A stretch of 64,000 nt of DNA, taken from the IMG/VR virus record IMGVR_UViG_3300042516_004698, positions 1 through 64,000 of that record. The stretch is one strand, 5' to 3'. Below the pieces are notes generated by a model. It saw only the letters and a list, made by a program, of their open reading frames with translations. It did no database searches and was not told where the DNA came from. Numbering within the stretch: position 1 is the stretch's first letter; each line of letters begins with the position of its first letter. This DNA is from a virus. The position numbers and the translations under genes are program-made. Below, piece after piece: positions 11,863-61,375 of the stretch.

Positions 11863-11866
11863 ATTT

Positions 11867-11878
11867 AAACGGAGGTTT
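11867..11878 (+). promoter_or_regulatory. Short SD-loop hairpin
   Basis: AAAC-GGAG-GTTT can form a 4-bp stem placing the SD in a tetraloop 2 nt before the ATG at 11881. It resembles the CsrA-type sites downstream but lacks the C-G-closed hexaloop, so I rate it lower. Confidence 0.3.
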
Positions 11879-11880
11879 CC

Positions 11881-12306
11881 ATGTCCGATAAGAACGTTTT
11901 AGTCCAGAAGATCATCGACTACATCGGCTTTTCTGATGTTGCGATGAGCAAAGCGGCCGAAGTCCTCAAGACTCGCGAGTCGCAGCACGAGAAGATTGCT
12001 TCTCTGATTCCGGAGGCTGTGAAAGCTTGTGTTGAACACGAGCGCATCGAGCCGCATCAGAAGGAAGCACTGGCTGCTGCCCTGCAGGATCCGGTCCGCG
12101 CGATCGAGCTTGTTGTGAAGTTAGCGTCACACCGCAACGCGGCCGAGATGGCCCGTATCGGCGCGCCGACAACGACACAGAAGACGGCTGGATACGACCC
12201 GAACAATAGCGTCACAAGCTCGTACGTGGGCGCTCGTGACGGCAAGCTCCGGGCCTCGGACATTAAGTTGTTCACGGGCCTTGGGCTGAATCCGCCCACA
12301 AACTGA
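11881..12306 (+). CDS. Small helical head-module protein, unknown
   Basis: This 141-aa product is helical for its first 110 residues and ends in a polar tail (NSVTSSYVGARDGKLRASD). The ATG has a strong ACGGAGG SD. It lies between the scaffold-like and decoration-like genes, so an accessory capsid-assembly role is likely, but I do not recognise the family. Confidence 0.65.
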   Translation: MSDKNVLVQKIIDYIGFSDVAMSKAAEVLKTRESQHEKIASLIPEAVKACVEHERIEPHQKEALAAALQDPVRAIELVVKLASHRNAAEMARIGAPTTTQKTAGYDPNNSVTSSYVGARDGKLRASDIKLFTGLGLNPPTN

Positions 12307-12350: not shown

Positions 12351-12368
12351 TAAGACACGGAGGTCTTA
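12351..12368 (+). promoter_or_regulatory. CsrA-type SD hairpin of the decoration gene
   Basis: TAAGAC-ACGGAG-GTCTTA is a perfect 6-bp stem with hexaloop ACGGAG closed by C-G; the SD GGAGG (12359-12363) sits in and just beside the loop. This is the form of a high-affinity CsrA/RsmE operator (A-N-G-G-A in a hexaloop). Confidence 0.7.
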
Positions 12369-12371
12369 ACT

Positions 12372-12932
12372 ATGGCAGCTCCCGATCTTCCCTTCGAACA
12401 CGCCGTTGATATCAAAAAGGGCTGGTTCGACATGGCGTCGCTCGACTACTCGGCCAAGCTGGGTACAGTCGGCTACACCCTCCCGCGCGGCCGCGTGGTG
12501 CACCTTGAGCACGTAAACGGCGCAGAAGTTTTTCTGCCCGGCGTACGCGCTACTGACGTCGCTATCTTCCTGCTTAATGGCGCTAACGATGCCGACGTTT
12601 CAAACGACGGCACCACAGCTTCGGGCAAGTTTGTGCAGCAGGCGATCTCGCCGAGCGGCAAGCTGTCCGGCGTAGTGGCCACAGGCGGTTACGAGATCGA
12701 CTCGACAGAGTTCGTCTCAAACCGGTCTTACGTTGCCGGCGATCTTCTCACGGCCCCCCTCGGTGCTGCCTCCGGCAACGCCGCGACCGGTGGCGTGCTG
12801 ACCAACGCCAGCGTCACTCAGTTTGTCACACCGGTGGTCGGTGTGGTGTCCAGCGGTAAACACACCAACCACAACGGCGTCAGCACGCTCTCCTTCTGGA
12901 GCGTGTGGCTTCCCGGCGCGGTACCCGGCTGA
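12372..12932 (+). CDS. Putative capsid decoration protein
   Basis: The 186-aa product is predicted all-beta, rich in Gly, Val, Ser and Thr, with a compact strand pattern (GRVVHLEHVNGAEVFLP). It is encoded immediately before the capsid gene with a very strong SD, implying high expression. Head decoration or stabilisation proteins commonly occupy this slot between protease/scaffold and capsid genes. There is no diagnostic motif, so the call rests on position, size and fold type. Confidence 0.6.
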   Translation: MAAPDLPFEHAVDIKKGWFDMASLDYSAKLGTVGYTLPRGRVVHLEHVNGAEVFLPGVRATDVAIFLLNGANDADVSNDGTTASGKFVQQAISPSGKLSGVVATGGYEIDSTEFVSNRSYVAGDLLTAPLGAASGNAATGGVLTNASVTQFVTPVVGVVSSGKHTNHNGVSTLSFWSVWLPGAVPG

Positions 12933-12951
12933 AACTAACCCTTAACTATCA

Positions 12952-12967
12952 GGAACACGGAGGTTCC
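12952..12967 (+). promoter_or_regulatory. CsrA-type SD hairpin of the capsid gene
   Basis: GGAAC-ACGGAG-GTTCC is a perfect 5-bp stem with the same ACGGAG hexaloop as the site 600 bp upstream but a different, compensating stem. SD GGAGG (12959-12963) lies 6 nt before the ATG. Confidence 0.7.
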
Positions 12968-12969
12968 AA

Positions 12970-13896
12970 ATGCCTACACAGTCAGAAATCCAACTGCTCA
13001 ACGAAACACTGTTTGAGCAGCTCGACACTCCCGGCATGCAGAAGCAGGCCATCGACGCGGTTAACGACTTCACGCGCACCAAGATGCGTGAAGACGGGTT
13101 CTACCGGCGGATTATGCCGCCGCTGACAATCACCAACGACGAGCTCGACCGTCAGGTTGACACTGACAAGCCCGTCAAGATTGTCGATAAGGAACCCGAT
13201 TCCCCGGCTGCCGTGTCGATCCCGTTTGCCACGCTGCCCGTTAACTTTTACATCCGTGGCCCGCGTTACCGCGTCATGTTTGACCGGATCGTGTCGCCCC
13301 GCGCTGTGAAGGACGTCGACGAACTGCGCACCTACGTCATGGACATCCGGCAGGTTCTGTCGGACAACATGATCAAGGACATGCTCGCCGAAGAAGACGG
13401 AAAGTTCATGGCCGCGATCAACGCTGTGCTCCCGACTGCGGGCGCCCCGGCTGTTGGCTCGGGCGAAGTTCAATACGAGGAGATCTACGGTGGTATCACC
13501 CGCGAAACGCTGGTTGACGCCCTCAAGATCATGCCGCGTACGGCTTCGCACTTCGAGGTTGAGACTTGCCTCGTGAATAACCTCACGATCAAGGAGCTCC
13601 TCAAGTTCGGTCGCGACGAAATGGGTGGTGACTTCTCGCAAGACATCATCAAGAACGGCTGGGCGGAAACCAACTTCCTGAATTGCCGCTGGATCGTGAC
13701 GATCAAGACGGGCCTTGTCCCCACGGACAGCCTGTTCATGTTCGCCTCGCCCAAGTTCATCGGCAAGAACTACGAGCTCGAGCCCACCACGATGTACATC
13801 CGTCGTGAAGCTTACATGCTCGAGTATTTTGCCTATGAGACGACAGGCGGCTCGTTCGGCCATACGAACGGTCTGGCCCGCGTCGATTTCAAGTGA
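12970..13896 (+). CDS. Putative major capsid protein
   Basis: The 308-aa product has the length and segment order of an HK97-fold capsid protein. An N-terminal helical arm is followed by an extended E-loop-like beta region (residues about 60-105, PVNFYIRGPRYRVMFDRIVSP). A long spine-helix candidate (DELRTYVMDIRQVLSDNMIKDMLAEEDGKF) follows, and later A-domain-like strands with a final beta region. It follows protease, scaffold and decoration candidates, has the strongest type of SD in the window, and shows clean high-expression codon usage. A long reading frame on the opposite strand is a composition artefact. No sequence database search was possible, so the fold assignment is by pattern and context. 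Confidence 0.75.
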   Translation: MPTQSEIQLLNETLFEQLDTPGMQKQAIDAVNDFTRTKMREDGFYRRIMPPLTITNDELDRQVDTDKPVKIVDKEPDSPAAVSIPFATLPVNFYIRGPRYRVMFDRIVSPRAVKDVDELRTYVMDIRQVLSDNMIKDMLAEEDGKFMAAINAVLPTAGAPAVGSGEVQYEEIYGGITRETLVDALKIMPRTASHFEVETCLVNNLTIKELLKFGRDEMGGDFSQDIIKNGWAETNFLNCRWIVTIKTGLVPTDSLFMFASPKFIGKNYELEPTTMYIRREAYMLEYFAYETTGGSFGHTNGLARVDFK

Positions 13897-39291: not shown

Positions 39292-39305
39292 GGACAAGGA
39301 TGTCC
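39292..39305 (+). promoter_or_regulatory. Near-consensus CsrA site over a start codon
   Basis: GGACAAGGATGTCC folds as a perfect 5-bp stem with AGGA at its tip (hexaloop AAGGAT closed by C-G). It matches 11 of 12 positions of the E. coli CsrA SELEX consensus RUACARGGAUGU (from published work, recalled). It contains the ATG start (39300) and overlaps the SD GGAGG (39289-39293). Confidence 0.7.
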
Positions 39306-41204
39306 AACAACTGGCTTTTTAATATCAGGCACATCGCGGCAGGCGAGCCCGTACAGGCAGAAGTTGTCGGTCGGCCGGATAAATCGCTTGAACAGCGTAC
39401 AGATTATCTGAAAGACCGGCTCGACGCGGCGGCGCTTGGGCGTGCGTTATTTGACGTAGACGCCACAATAGCGCCAGACGTGCTGGAGGGGCAGCCCGTG
39501 TTCTGGAACTACCAGACGCAGCGCTATGAGCGCGCTCTGGCGGCTGTAGAAAACGACGACGTTACGCAGACGCTCGTAGTACAGGCCTCGTCTGATTGTC
39601 TGGGGCTGCTGTACAGCAAGAAGTCGCCTACGCTCGGGGATATTGTGCTGCGCGGCATTGTTAAGCTCCCGGGGCTTACTAACGCTATAACCGGGCCAAT
39701 CACGGCCGGCCGCTATTACCTGTCGTCAGAGGCCCCGGGCAAACTGGTGAAGCAGCGCCCGCCTGCTACGGTCTCTGTGTGCTACGTGCAAGGCGCCAAG
39801 GACAGCTGCGCCGCTGATCCGTGGGTTGTGGTAATGCCACAAGTGCGCGACTTCCTTGAGGATCACATTCATTATCGTTTTGAACTGGTCACACGGGCTG
39901 CCGGCGTGCTCTCAACTGCGAACGGCAAAGTGAGCATCACCCAGCCAGACGCCACACTTCAGGGCTGGCTGCCGGCATCGCATGCGGTGTTTAACGGCAA
40001 AGCTCCGGCTGGCGCGGTATTCGGATACAACCTGTCAGCGCACCTGCAGCTGTCCCGTGTGTGGCCGCCGCAGCCTGTCAGCGCCGTAGCTATGCTTTGG
40101 GATAAAGGCCAGAACCTTGTAGGCGCGACTGAAATACCGCTTGGCCGAGAAGGCTTGGCCATATGCGACGCCAACGGTATCTGGTGGACGAGCGACTGCG
40201 TAGGCGACGTTCCGTGGGTTGCAGGCGTATCCAGCTCATCTTCATCTTCATCTTCATCTTCAAGCTCGAGCGCTAGTTTGAGCGCCGCGGCAGAGTGCCC
40301 GCGTGACGAGCGTATGCGCGTCATTGTCGTGTTTCTGCGCATGGTATTCGGTAATGATCGCAGCGTAGTCACGAGCTTGCAGGCCGGTCCCGGTAGCCCG
40401 ATCCGCGTAACTAATTGCGACGGGCTGGTTGCTAAAACTGGCGACCTCGAATTAAACCTCGATCTCAACTTAGCAATTAAACCGCCCGACCTTGATGGCG
40501 CGCGCGTACTCAAGCGAATTGAAGACGGGTATAAATTTCGGCAGGGGTGGGTAACCGAAGGCGTTGTGAGCGGCTCTGCGCCAATTGTTGTAACAAGCTA
40601 CCCAAGCAATCCAGTGGCGGCGCGTGCGCTTACCGCCGCCGAAAAAACAGGGTTGGGTTTTCCCGCAGAAGCGGACATAACGGCGCAGCGCGGCTTAGTC
40701 AAAATCTCGTTTAATGACGCGCTCGTCGAACGCGAACTGTCGCCGCAAATCATACGGCTATCGGACGCCGTGGAGCGGCTCTACAAAGACGTGCCGTATA
40801 TCGGGTTTCCATCCGGACAAGACTCGTTGGTGCGCGTCCGGTTTATTGTGCCAGCTGCCGGGCTTGGGTTGGGTCTGCAGGTTGTATTGCGCGCGCAGTT
40901 ACTCGGTCTCAGCACTGGCGCCTTACCAGAACTCGAAGTTACATATCGCAGATTGCCAAGACCCGCTGGCGCGCCGATCTCGCTTGTAGCCGTAGACGTA
41001 TCGCCGGCGTTGGCGTTTGCTTCAAATGTAGCCGTAACGGCAAACAACGTTGTGGAGATTGAAAGCGCGCCGTTTCCTGTTGCTGAGGGCGATACCGTAC
41101 TTGTTACCATGCGGCGTCGTTTAGTCGGCGGCGGCTCAGACGGATATCTCGGCGAGGTCGGTTTGTTGCGTTTATCTGGAATAGTCACCAATGTTGGGCC
41201 GTAA
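39300..41204 (+). CDS. Tail fibre / fibre-hub protein with poly-Ser linker
   Basis: In this 634-aa product, residues 1-60 (NIRHIAAGEPVQAEVVGRPD, KSLEQRTDYLKDRLDA) have the baseplate-attachment helix pattern common in long phage fibres. A beta-rich region with Pro/Gly turns follows. A serine run at residues about 311-324 separates this from a C-terminal beta-sandwich domain (residues 330-634, VRVRFIVPAAGLGLGLQVVLRAQ), possibly the receptor-binding or trimerisation part. The codons of the serine run are mainly TCT/TCA. Its RBS is a predicted CsrA target. Confidence 0.6.
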   Translation: MSNNWLFNIRHIAAGEPVQAEVVGRPDKSLEQRTDYLKDRLDAAALGRALFDVDATIAPDVLEGQPVFWNYQTQRYERALAAVENDDVTQTLVVQASSDCLGLLYSKKSPTLGDIVLRGIVKLPGLTNAITGPITAGRYYLSSEAPGKLVKQRPPATVSVCYVQGAKDSCAADPWVVVMPQVRDFLEDHIHYRFELVTRAAGVLSTANGKVSITQPDATLQGWLPASHAVFNGKAPAGAVFGYNLSAHLQLSRVWPPQPVSAVAMLWDKGQNLVGATEIPLGREGLAICDANGIWWTSDCVGDVPWVAGVSSSSSSSSSSSSSSASLSAAAECPRDERMRVIVVFLRMVFGNDRSVVTSLQAGPGSPIRVTNCDGLVAKTGDLELNLDLNLAIKPPDLDGARVLKRIEDGYKFRQGWVTEGVVSGSAPIVVTSYPSNPVAARALTAAEKTGLGFPAEADITAQRGLVKISFNDALVERELSPQIIRLSDAVERLYKDVPYIGFPSGQDSLVRVRFIVPAAGLGLGLQVVLRAQLLGLSTGALPELEVTYRRLPRPAGAPISLVAVDVSPALAFASNVAVTANNVVEIESAPFPVAEGDTVLVTMRRRLVGGGSDGYLGEVGLLRLSGIVTNVGP

Positions 41205-61159: not shown

Positions 61160-61375
61160 GTGCTTGTTTTAGCGCGAAAACGTGATGAGGTCATAATGAT
61201 CGGCGACAACATCAAGATCACAGTCGTCGAAATACTACCCCACGCCGTTAAAATCGGCATCGACGCTCCGGCCGAAACGACGATCGTACGTAAAGAGCTT
61301 ATCGCCAAGATGAAATTCGATCATCGGGCGCAACGGCCTAAAATCGGCAAAGATAACAAAGCAAATAAAGCTTAG
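61160..61375 (+). CDS. csrA: CsrA family RNA-binding regulator
   Basis: The 71-aa product aligns over its first 52 residues with bacterial CsrA/RsmA (MLVLARKRDEVIMIGDNIKI against [20 protein letters not shown] in E. coli). The RNA-contacting positions known for CsrA are kept: L4, R6, a basic residue at 7, and R44 in the IVRKE segment. The beta strand order and the IGIDAP core are intact, so a domain-swapped dimer should form. The C-terminal 18 residues are a basic extension. CsrA dimers bind A-N-G-G-A hairpin loops over ribosome binding sites and usually block translation. The gene starts with GTG behind AGGA. Candidate targets lie in this same genome (2929, 12351, 12952, 39292). Confidence 0.9.
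   Translation: MLVLARKRDEVIMIGDNIKITVVEILPHAVKIGIDAPAETTIVRKELIAKMKFDHRAQRPKIGKDNKANKA

Follow-up and report, generated by a model that had tools for sequence, protein, structure and literature searches.

Capsid-module leaders carry CsrA-type hairpins

The ribosome-binding sites (RBSs) of the major capsid gene and of the neighboring putative decoration gene in this phage are each enclosed in a short hairpin of the CsrA/RsmE type, and the phage encodes a CsrA of its own. We consider it likely that the hairpins belong to a set of CsrA/RsmE-type sites at the RBSs of the phage's own genes, where the phage CsrA would cover the Shine–Dalgarno (SD) sequence and limit translation of virion proteins. 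The window, 64,000 nucleotides long, is part of the 75,370-base virus record IMGVR_UViG_3300042516_004698. It represents a lineage of large phages among the IMG/VR contigs, the longest records of which reach about 190–226 kb. Among 50,697 phage records, the closest matches to its capsid protein share about 30% identity with it and come from Salmonella phage Arash and three Vibrio phages; the same protein used as query retrieved 64 related loci. The main features are as follows.

12351–12368, + strand: decoration-gene leader hairpin TAAGAC-ACGGAG-GTCTTA, with the ATG at 12372
12372–12932, + strand: 186-aa gene adjoining the major capsid gene, called "decoration" from position and size only
12952–12967, + strand: major-capsid leader hairpin GGAAC-ACGGAG-GTTCC, with the ATG at 12970
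12970–13896, + strand: major capsid protein (MCP), 30% identical to the MCP annotated in Salmonella phage Arash (E=8e-31)
61160–61375, + strand: csrA, GTG start, 71 aa, PF02599

Both hairpins, described in a first-pass annotation, are found at these coordinates and fold as drawn. Each overlaps the SD sequence of its gene, most of which sits inside the loop ACGGAG (12357–12362 in the decoration leader, holding GGAG(G), and 12957–12962 in the capsid leader). The loop is a hexaloop placed directly on the stem and closed by a C–G pair, the ANGGAX arrangement of high-affinity CsrA/RsmE sites (PMC4005645). The decoration and capsid hairpins have predicted energies of −4.4 and −4.8 kcal/mol alone and −5.4 and −6.3 kcal/mol with short flanks, and the decoration leader folded in a 52-nt context has a competing minimum free energy fold. 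The 186-aa protein gave no match in family, PDB and phage-record searches, and its fold prediction was uninformative (pLDDT 34).

The two hairpins had been judged non-accidental from the odds of five or six fixed pairs (4^5 and 4^6). This arithmetic omits the number of genes examined, but its conclusion survives a direct count: of the 34 GGA-bearing RBSs in the window's contig, 3 have this loop geometry on a stem of 5 bp or more, whereas 0.14 are expected once 3′ arms have been exchanged among genes (2000 shuffles, printed p of 0.0000).

Stems covary in related phages

Among close relatives, A[C/T]GGAG persists as the loop, and the stems vary by compensatory pairs. The capsid stem, for example, appears as GGAAC/GTTCC, AGAAC/GTTCT, GAAGAC/GTCTTT, GGAC/GTCC, and TTTC/GAAA. 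The near-invariant columns are C-ANGGAG-G, the core of a CsrA site, including the C and A that lie upstream of the SD sequence. The contrast first seen within the window, identical loops on stems that differ yet stay paired, is borne out by the compensatory changes of these relatives, whose homologous leaders keep the pairing.

The changes were placed on the capsid-gene tree with a custom implementation rather than R-scape, using loci whose register could be anchored, which left out some distant ones. The capsid stem shows 10 compensatory branches, whereas simulating the columns independently yields 1.5 and never reached 10 in 400 runs; the decoration stem shows 5 against 0.75, with 5 reached in 3 of 400. 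Independent pair counting agrees. In the capsid stem 92.8% of cells are paired, with 22 double changes against 5.6 after shuffling (0 of 500 shuffles), and in the decoration stem 80.3% are paired, with 15 double changes against 7.0. When the capsid register is slid by one column the score falls from 0.479 to 0.235 or less, every slid register being clearly worse. Five of the six proposed decoration pairs hold in this comparison, whereas the sixth, outermost pair is unsupported across relatives. The capsid stem is broken in one locus (L005) and lacking in the distant loci L040–L043 and L052, and distant relatives without a detected csrA have plain SD sequences before the MCP gene. Judged by this covariation, selection keeps the capsid and decoration sites.

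Hairpins are enriched at ribosome-binding sites

In this lineage, with heuristic gene calls, ANGGAG is flanked by a stem of 4 bp or more at 73 of 334 RBS sites (22%) versus 73 of 1987 sites elsewhere (3.7%; Fisher 1.6e-26, a pooled p-value that, like the others, overstates independence because the six closest genomes share ancestry). The distant genomes G033, G036, and G038 are each significant alone. In six control genomes the same motif with stem is found at 6 of 251 RBSs (2.4%) and 35 of 1935 sites elsewhere, which is not significant. Nine larger genomes carry 9–13 hairpins with an NN-GGA-N hexaloop, compared with 2–3.5 expected from swapped 3′ arms, and the window's contig carries 4, compared with 0.7.

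The phage encodes CsrA

The window's csrA product matches PF02599 at 61163–61312 with 73.4 bits, against a curated cut-off of 27 (E=1.5e-20), and its best PDB matches are all CsrA/RsmE proteins. Aligned with Escherichia coli CsrA and the phage relatives, it has L4, R6, and R44, which we take to be the RNA-contact residues of CsrA. Outside G015, G027, and G038, which the comparison left out, these residues are kept in nearly all relatives parsed.

The gene shares its strand with the MCP gene and lies 48 kb downstream of it, at the distal end of the structural block; across eight genomes the strand is likewise shared and the downstream distance is 44–56 kb. A csrA gene is present in 25 of the 50 records searched and in each of the 14 clade records that reach 190 kb or more; most csrA-negative records are shorter and may be fragments. 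All three genomes with terminal repeats (G009, G017, and G027), which are probably complete because of these repeats, contain csrA. The related phages G041, G042, and G043 (L069–L071, L093–L095) have two different csrA genes apiece, with little site enrichment in G041.

The likeness of the loop to CsrA/RsmE sites had been pointed out from the window sequence; the csrA gene and the larger set of candidate targets go beyond that description. Covariation, the ANGGAX hexaloop geometry, a bias toward A at the first loop position, and csrA in the same phage together argue for RBS hairpins of CsrA/RsmE type.

Further leader hairpins

Whole-genome scans followed by orthologue grouping added the following features in the window.

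1–12, + strand: AAC-ACGGAG-GTT leader hairpin of gene 17–763, clipped by the contig start
2929–2944, + strand: GCCGC-ATGGAG-GTGGC leader hairpin of a capsid-module gene of about 800 aa
2946–5342, + strand: the gene of about 800 aa, its start most likely the GTG at 2946
39292–39305, + strand: GGAC-AAGGAT-GTCC hairpin, at whose loop edge gene 39300–41204 has its start codon

The start of the ~800-aa gene in the open reading frame list, an ATG at 2934, falls within the hairpin loop. Pairing of 2–6 bp is found at this leader in all 11 genomes compared, with only 2–3 bp in two of them; 9 of the 11 have stems of 4 bp or more, and stem sequences differ. Family, PDB, and phage-record searches with the ~800-aa protein gave no match, and its fold prediction was uninformative (pLDDT 49). 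Orthologues of gene 17–763 have the stems CAAC/GTTG, TAAAC/GTTTA, and TGTTTAC/GTAAATA, and others are without a hairpin. The hairpin at 39292–39305 is present in the close relatives compared and appears in G038 as TGCC-AAGGAT-GGCA, a pairing that may reflect coding constraint.

Beyond the window, at contig position 65639 (L214), the hairpin CGTC-ACGGAG-GACG precedes a 147-aa gene. Relatives also bear such hairpins before the tail sheath gene, whose counterpart in the window has none, and before a gene of about 250 aa that was not found in the window. In G033 (L068), TCGA-AAGGAG-TCGA stands directly before csrA and is a possible autoregulatory site, a candidate in one lineage. The pairing AAAC-GGAG-GTTT at 11866–11877 (+ strand), before the third capsid-module gene, at 11881, was rejected as a site: it contains a strong SD sequence, but relatives do not keep its pairing. 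It serves as an internal negative comparison for the paired leaders.

Proposed mechanism and the ligand of the sites

In the mechanism that we propose, dimers of phage CsrA would bind the ANGGAG loops, and the bound protein would cover the SD sequence. By analogy with known CsrA targets, which are repressed when the protein masks the SD sequence, translation of the capsid and other virion proteins would thereby be restrained, possibly as a late-phase brake or as a control of stoichiometry. The phage protein, more than the CsrA of the host, would be the main ligand. The genomic data suggest that virion production of the phage itself, besides host genes, is under the control of phage CsrA. With somewhat less assurance, we favor the broader reading that phage CsrA is a virion-assembly regulator with a conserved regulon that comprises capsid, tail, and related genes, setting the timing or ratio of virion proteins through RBS occupancy; this regulon would possibly include csrA itself in the one lineage of G033.

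The closest competitor accepts the hairpins as CsrA sites and assigns them to host CsrA, which the late genes of the phage would sense or resist, while phage CsrA would serve host takeover, for instance suppression of CRISPR-Cas. Phage CsrA has indeed been proposed to manipulate hosts and to repress CRISPR-Cas (PMC8450108; PMC11879866), and CsrA is common among bacteria. Consistent with a host ligand, G032 keeps the MCP and decoration hairpins, with weak enrichment, although no csrA was detected in its 184 kb (possibly a fragment) even by relaxed tblastn. Hosts in Vibrio, Salmonella, and Xanthomonas generally have csrA, yet site enrichment is weak or absent in their phages, and in the site-rich clade no record of 190 kb or more lacks a phage csrA. 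We regard a host ligand as unlikely.

The presence of csrA alone does not predict sites, because several genomes deviate, G032 among them. G034, G041, and Xanthomonas phage PhiXhv-12, all in the control group, are large and csrA-positive with little or no site enrichment, and Vibrio phage D69, without csrA, has a weak excess over the arm-swap expectation (9 versus 3.7), with A at the first loop position in only 5 of 9. The correlation between csrA and sites is also confounded by ancestry, as it draws on a single lineage and a few distant others. We considered and rejected the sites as a general trait of csrA phages: PhiXhv-12, F116, PTXU04, Vibrio phage 1.232.O, and Vibrio phage 219E41.2 have no enrichment, unlike this lineage, power being low for small genomes and the scan of F116 and 219E41.2 covering just the first 50 kb of each. 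The pairing is characteristic of this lineage.

A second competitor dispenses with protein: the hairpins would display the SD sequence in the loop or shield the leader from RNases, so that abundant virion proteins are strongly translated. The SD sequence does lie largely in the loop, structural genes are among the targets, and the stems, at −3 to −7 kcal/mol, are modest in strength and melt easily. Against this role, consistent excess is confined to the CsrA hexaloop register; of twelve other loop registers tried, the sole exception, 3-GGA-2, amounts to that stem lacking the closing pair. Moreover, A occupies the first loop position at 92 of 100 sites with a hairpin and at 389 of 1039 others (37%; 7e-28). 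The ribosome does not require A at this position, and the SD sequence needs neither it nor the C–G closing pair, both of which are kept. The plain SD sequences that distant relatives without a detected csrA use before the same capsid gene also speak against this explanation, which we find quite improbable. A third view, that chance or common descent produced the pairing around a strong SD sequence, is very improbable: the relatives are similar and GGAGG is required anyway, but the view is contradicted by the tree-based and slid-register controls, by the nulls from arm swapping, and by independent stems in the leaders of several different genes.

Relation to known CsrA systems

CsrA sites and phage csrA genes are both already known; no paper among those searched describes a phage csrA with targets among the phage's own virion genes. 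Repression by CsrA/RsmE of hcnA in Pseudomonas, and of similar bacterial mRNAs, uses the same hexaloop on a short RBS stem (PMC4005645). Unlike in the hcnA type, the targets here are capsid and other phage genes, the regulator is likely phage-encoded, and no decoy sRNA was found: the window and G003 have no Rfam match to CsrB- or RsmX/Y/Z-like families, and an intergenic cluster of three GGA hairpins is absent across ten genomes. The Hag–FliW–CsrA system of Bacillus subtilis, in which CsrA binds the SD sequence of flagellin, an abundant self-assembling structural protein (PMC6529632), resembles the present case in the kind of target; there one gene is targeted, here several.

Phage-encoded csrA genes have been documented (PMC7366521), and suppression of CRISPR-Cas or manipulation of the host has been proposed as their role (PMC8450108). 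Knockdown of csrA in PTXU04 gave smaller plaques, and the role of csrA in the phage cycle was called untested in 2025 (PMC11879866). The CsrA/RsmA proteins of F116, DC1, PTXU04, and other phages are of the same family as the one described here, with host manipulation as their proposed role (PMC7366521, PMC8450108, PMC11879866). The titles and abstracts of open-licence PMC papers contained nothing relevant on phage CsrA acting on phage structural genes. The leading idea so far has been host manipulation or CRISPR suppression, and the sequence record of this lineage points to the phage's own capsid genes. If this is true, a protein-based layer of translational control would be added to virion assembly in large phages, parallel to the control of flagellin by CsrA.

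Other features of the lineage

Near the capsid module, the gene at 995–2857 contains an RNA polymerase beta′-type domain (PF04998, E=7e-23), which suggests a phage multisubunit RNA polymerase. The relative G003 (L098:19765–20000, L099:13660–13695, L104:2969–3043) has a tmRNA match and nine tRNA matches, and it also matches the abiF RNA and DUF3800-VIII RNA families.
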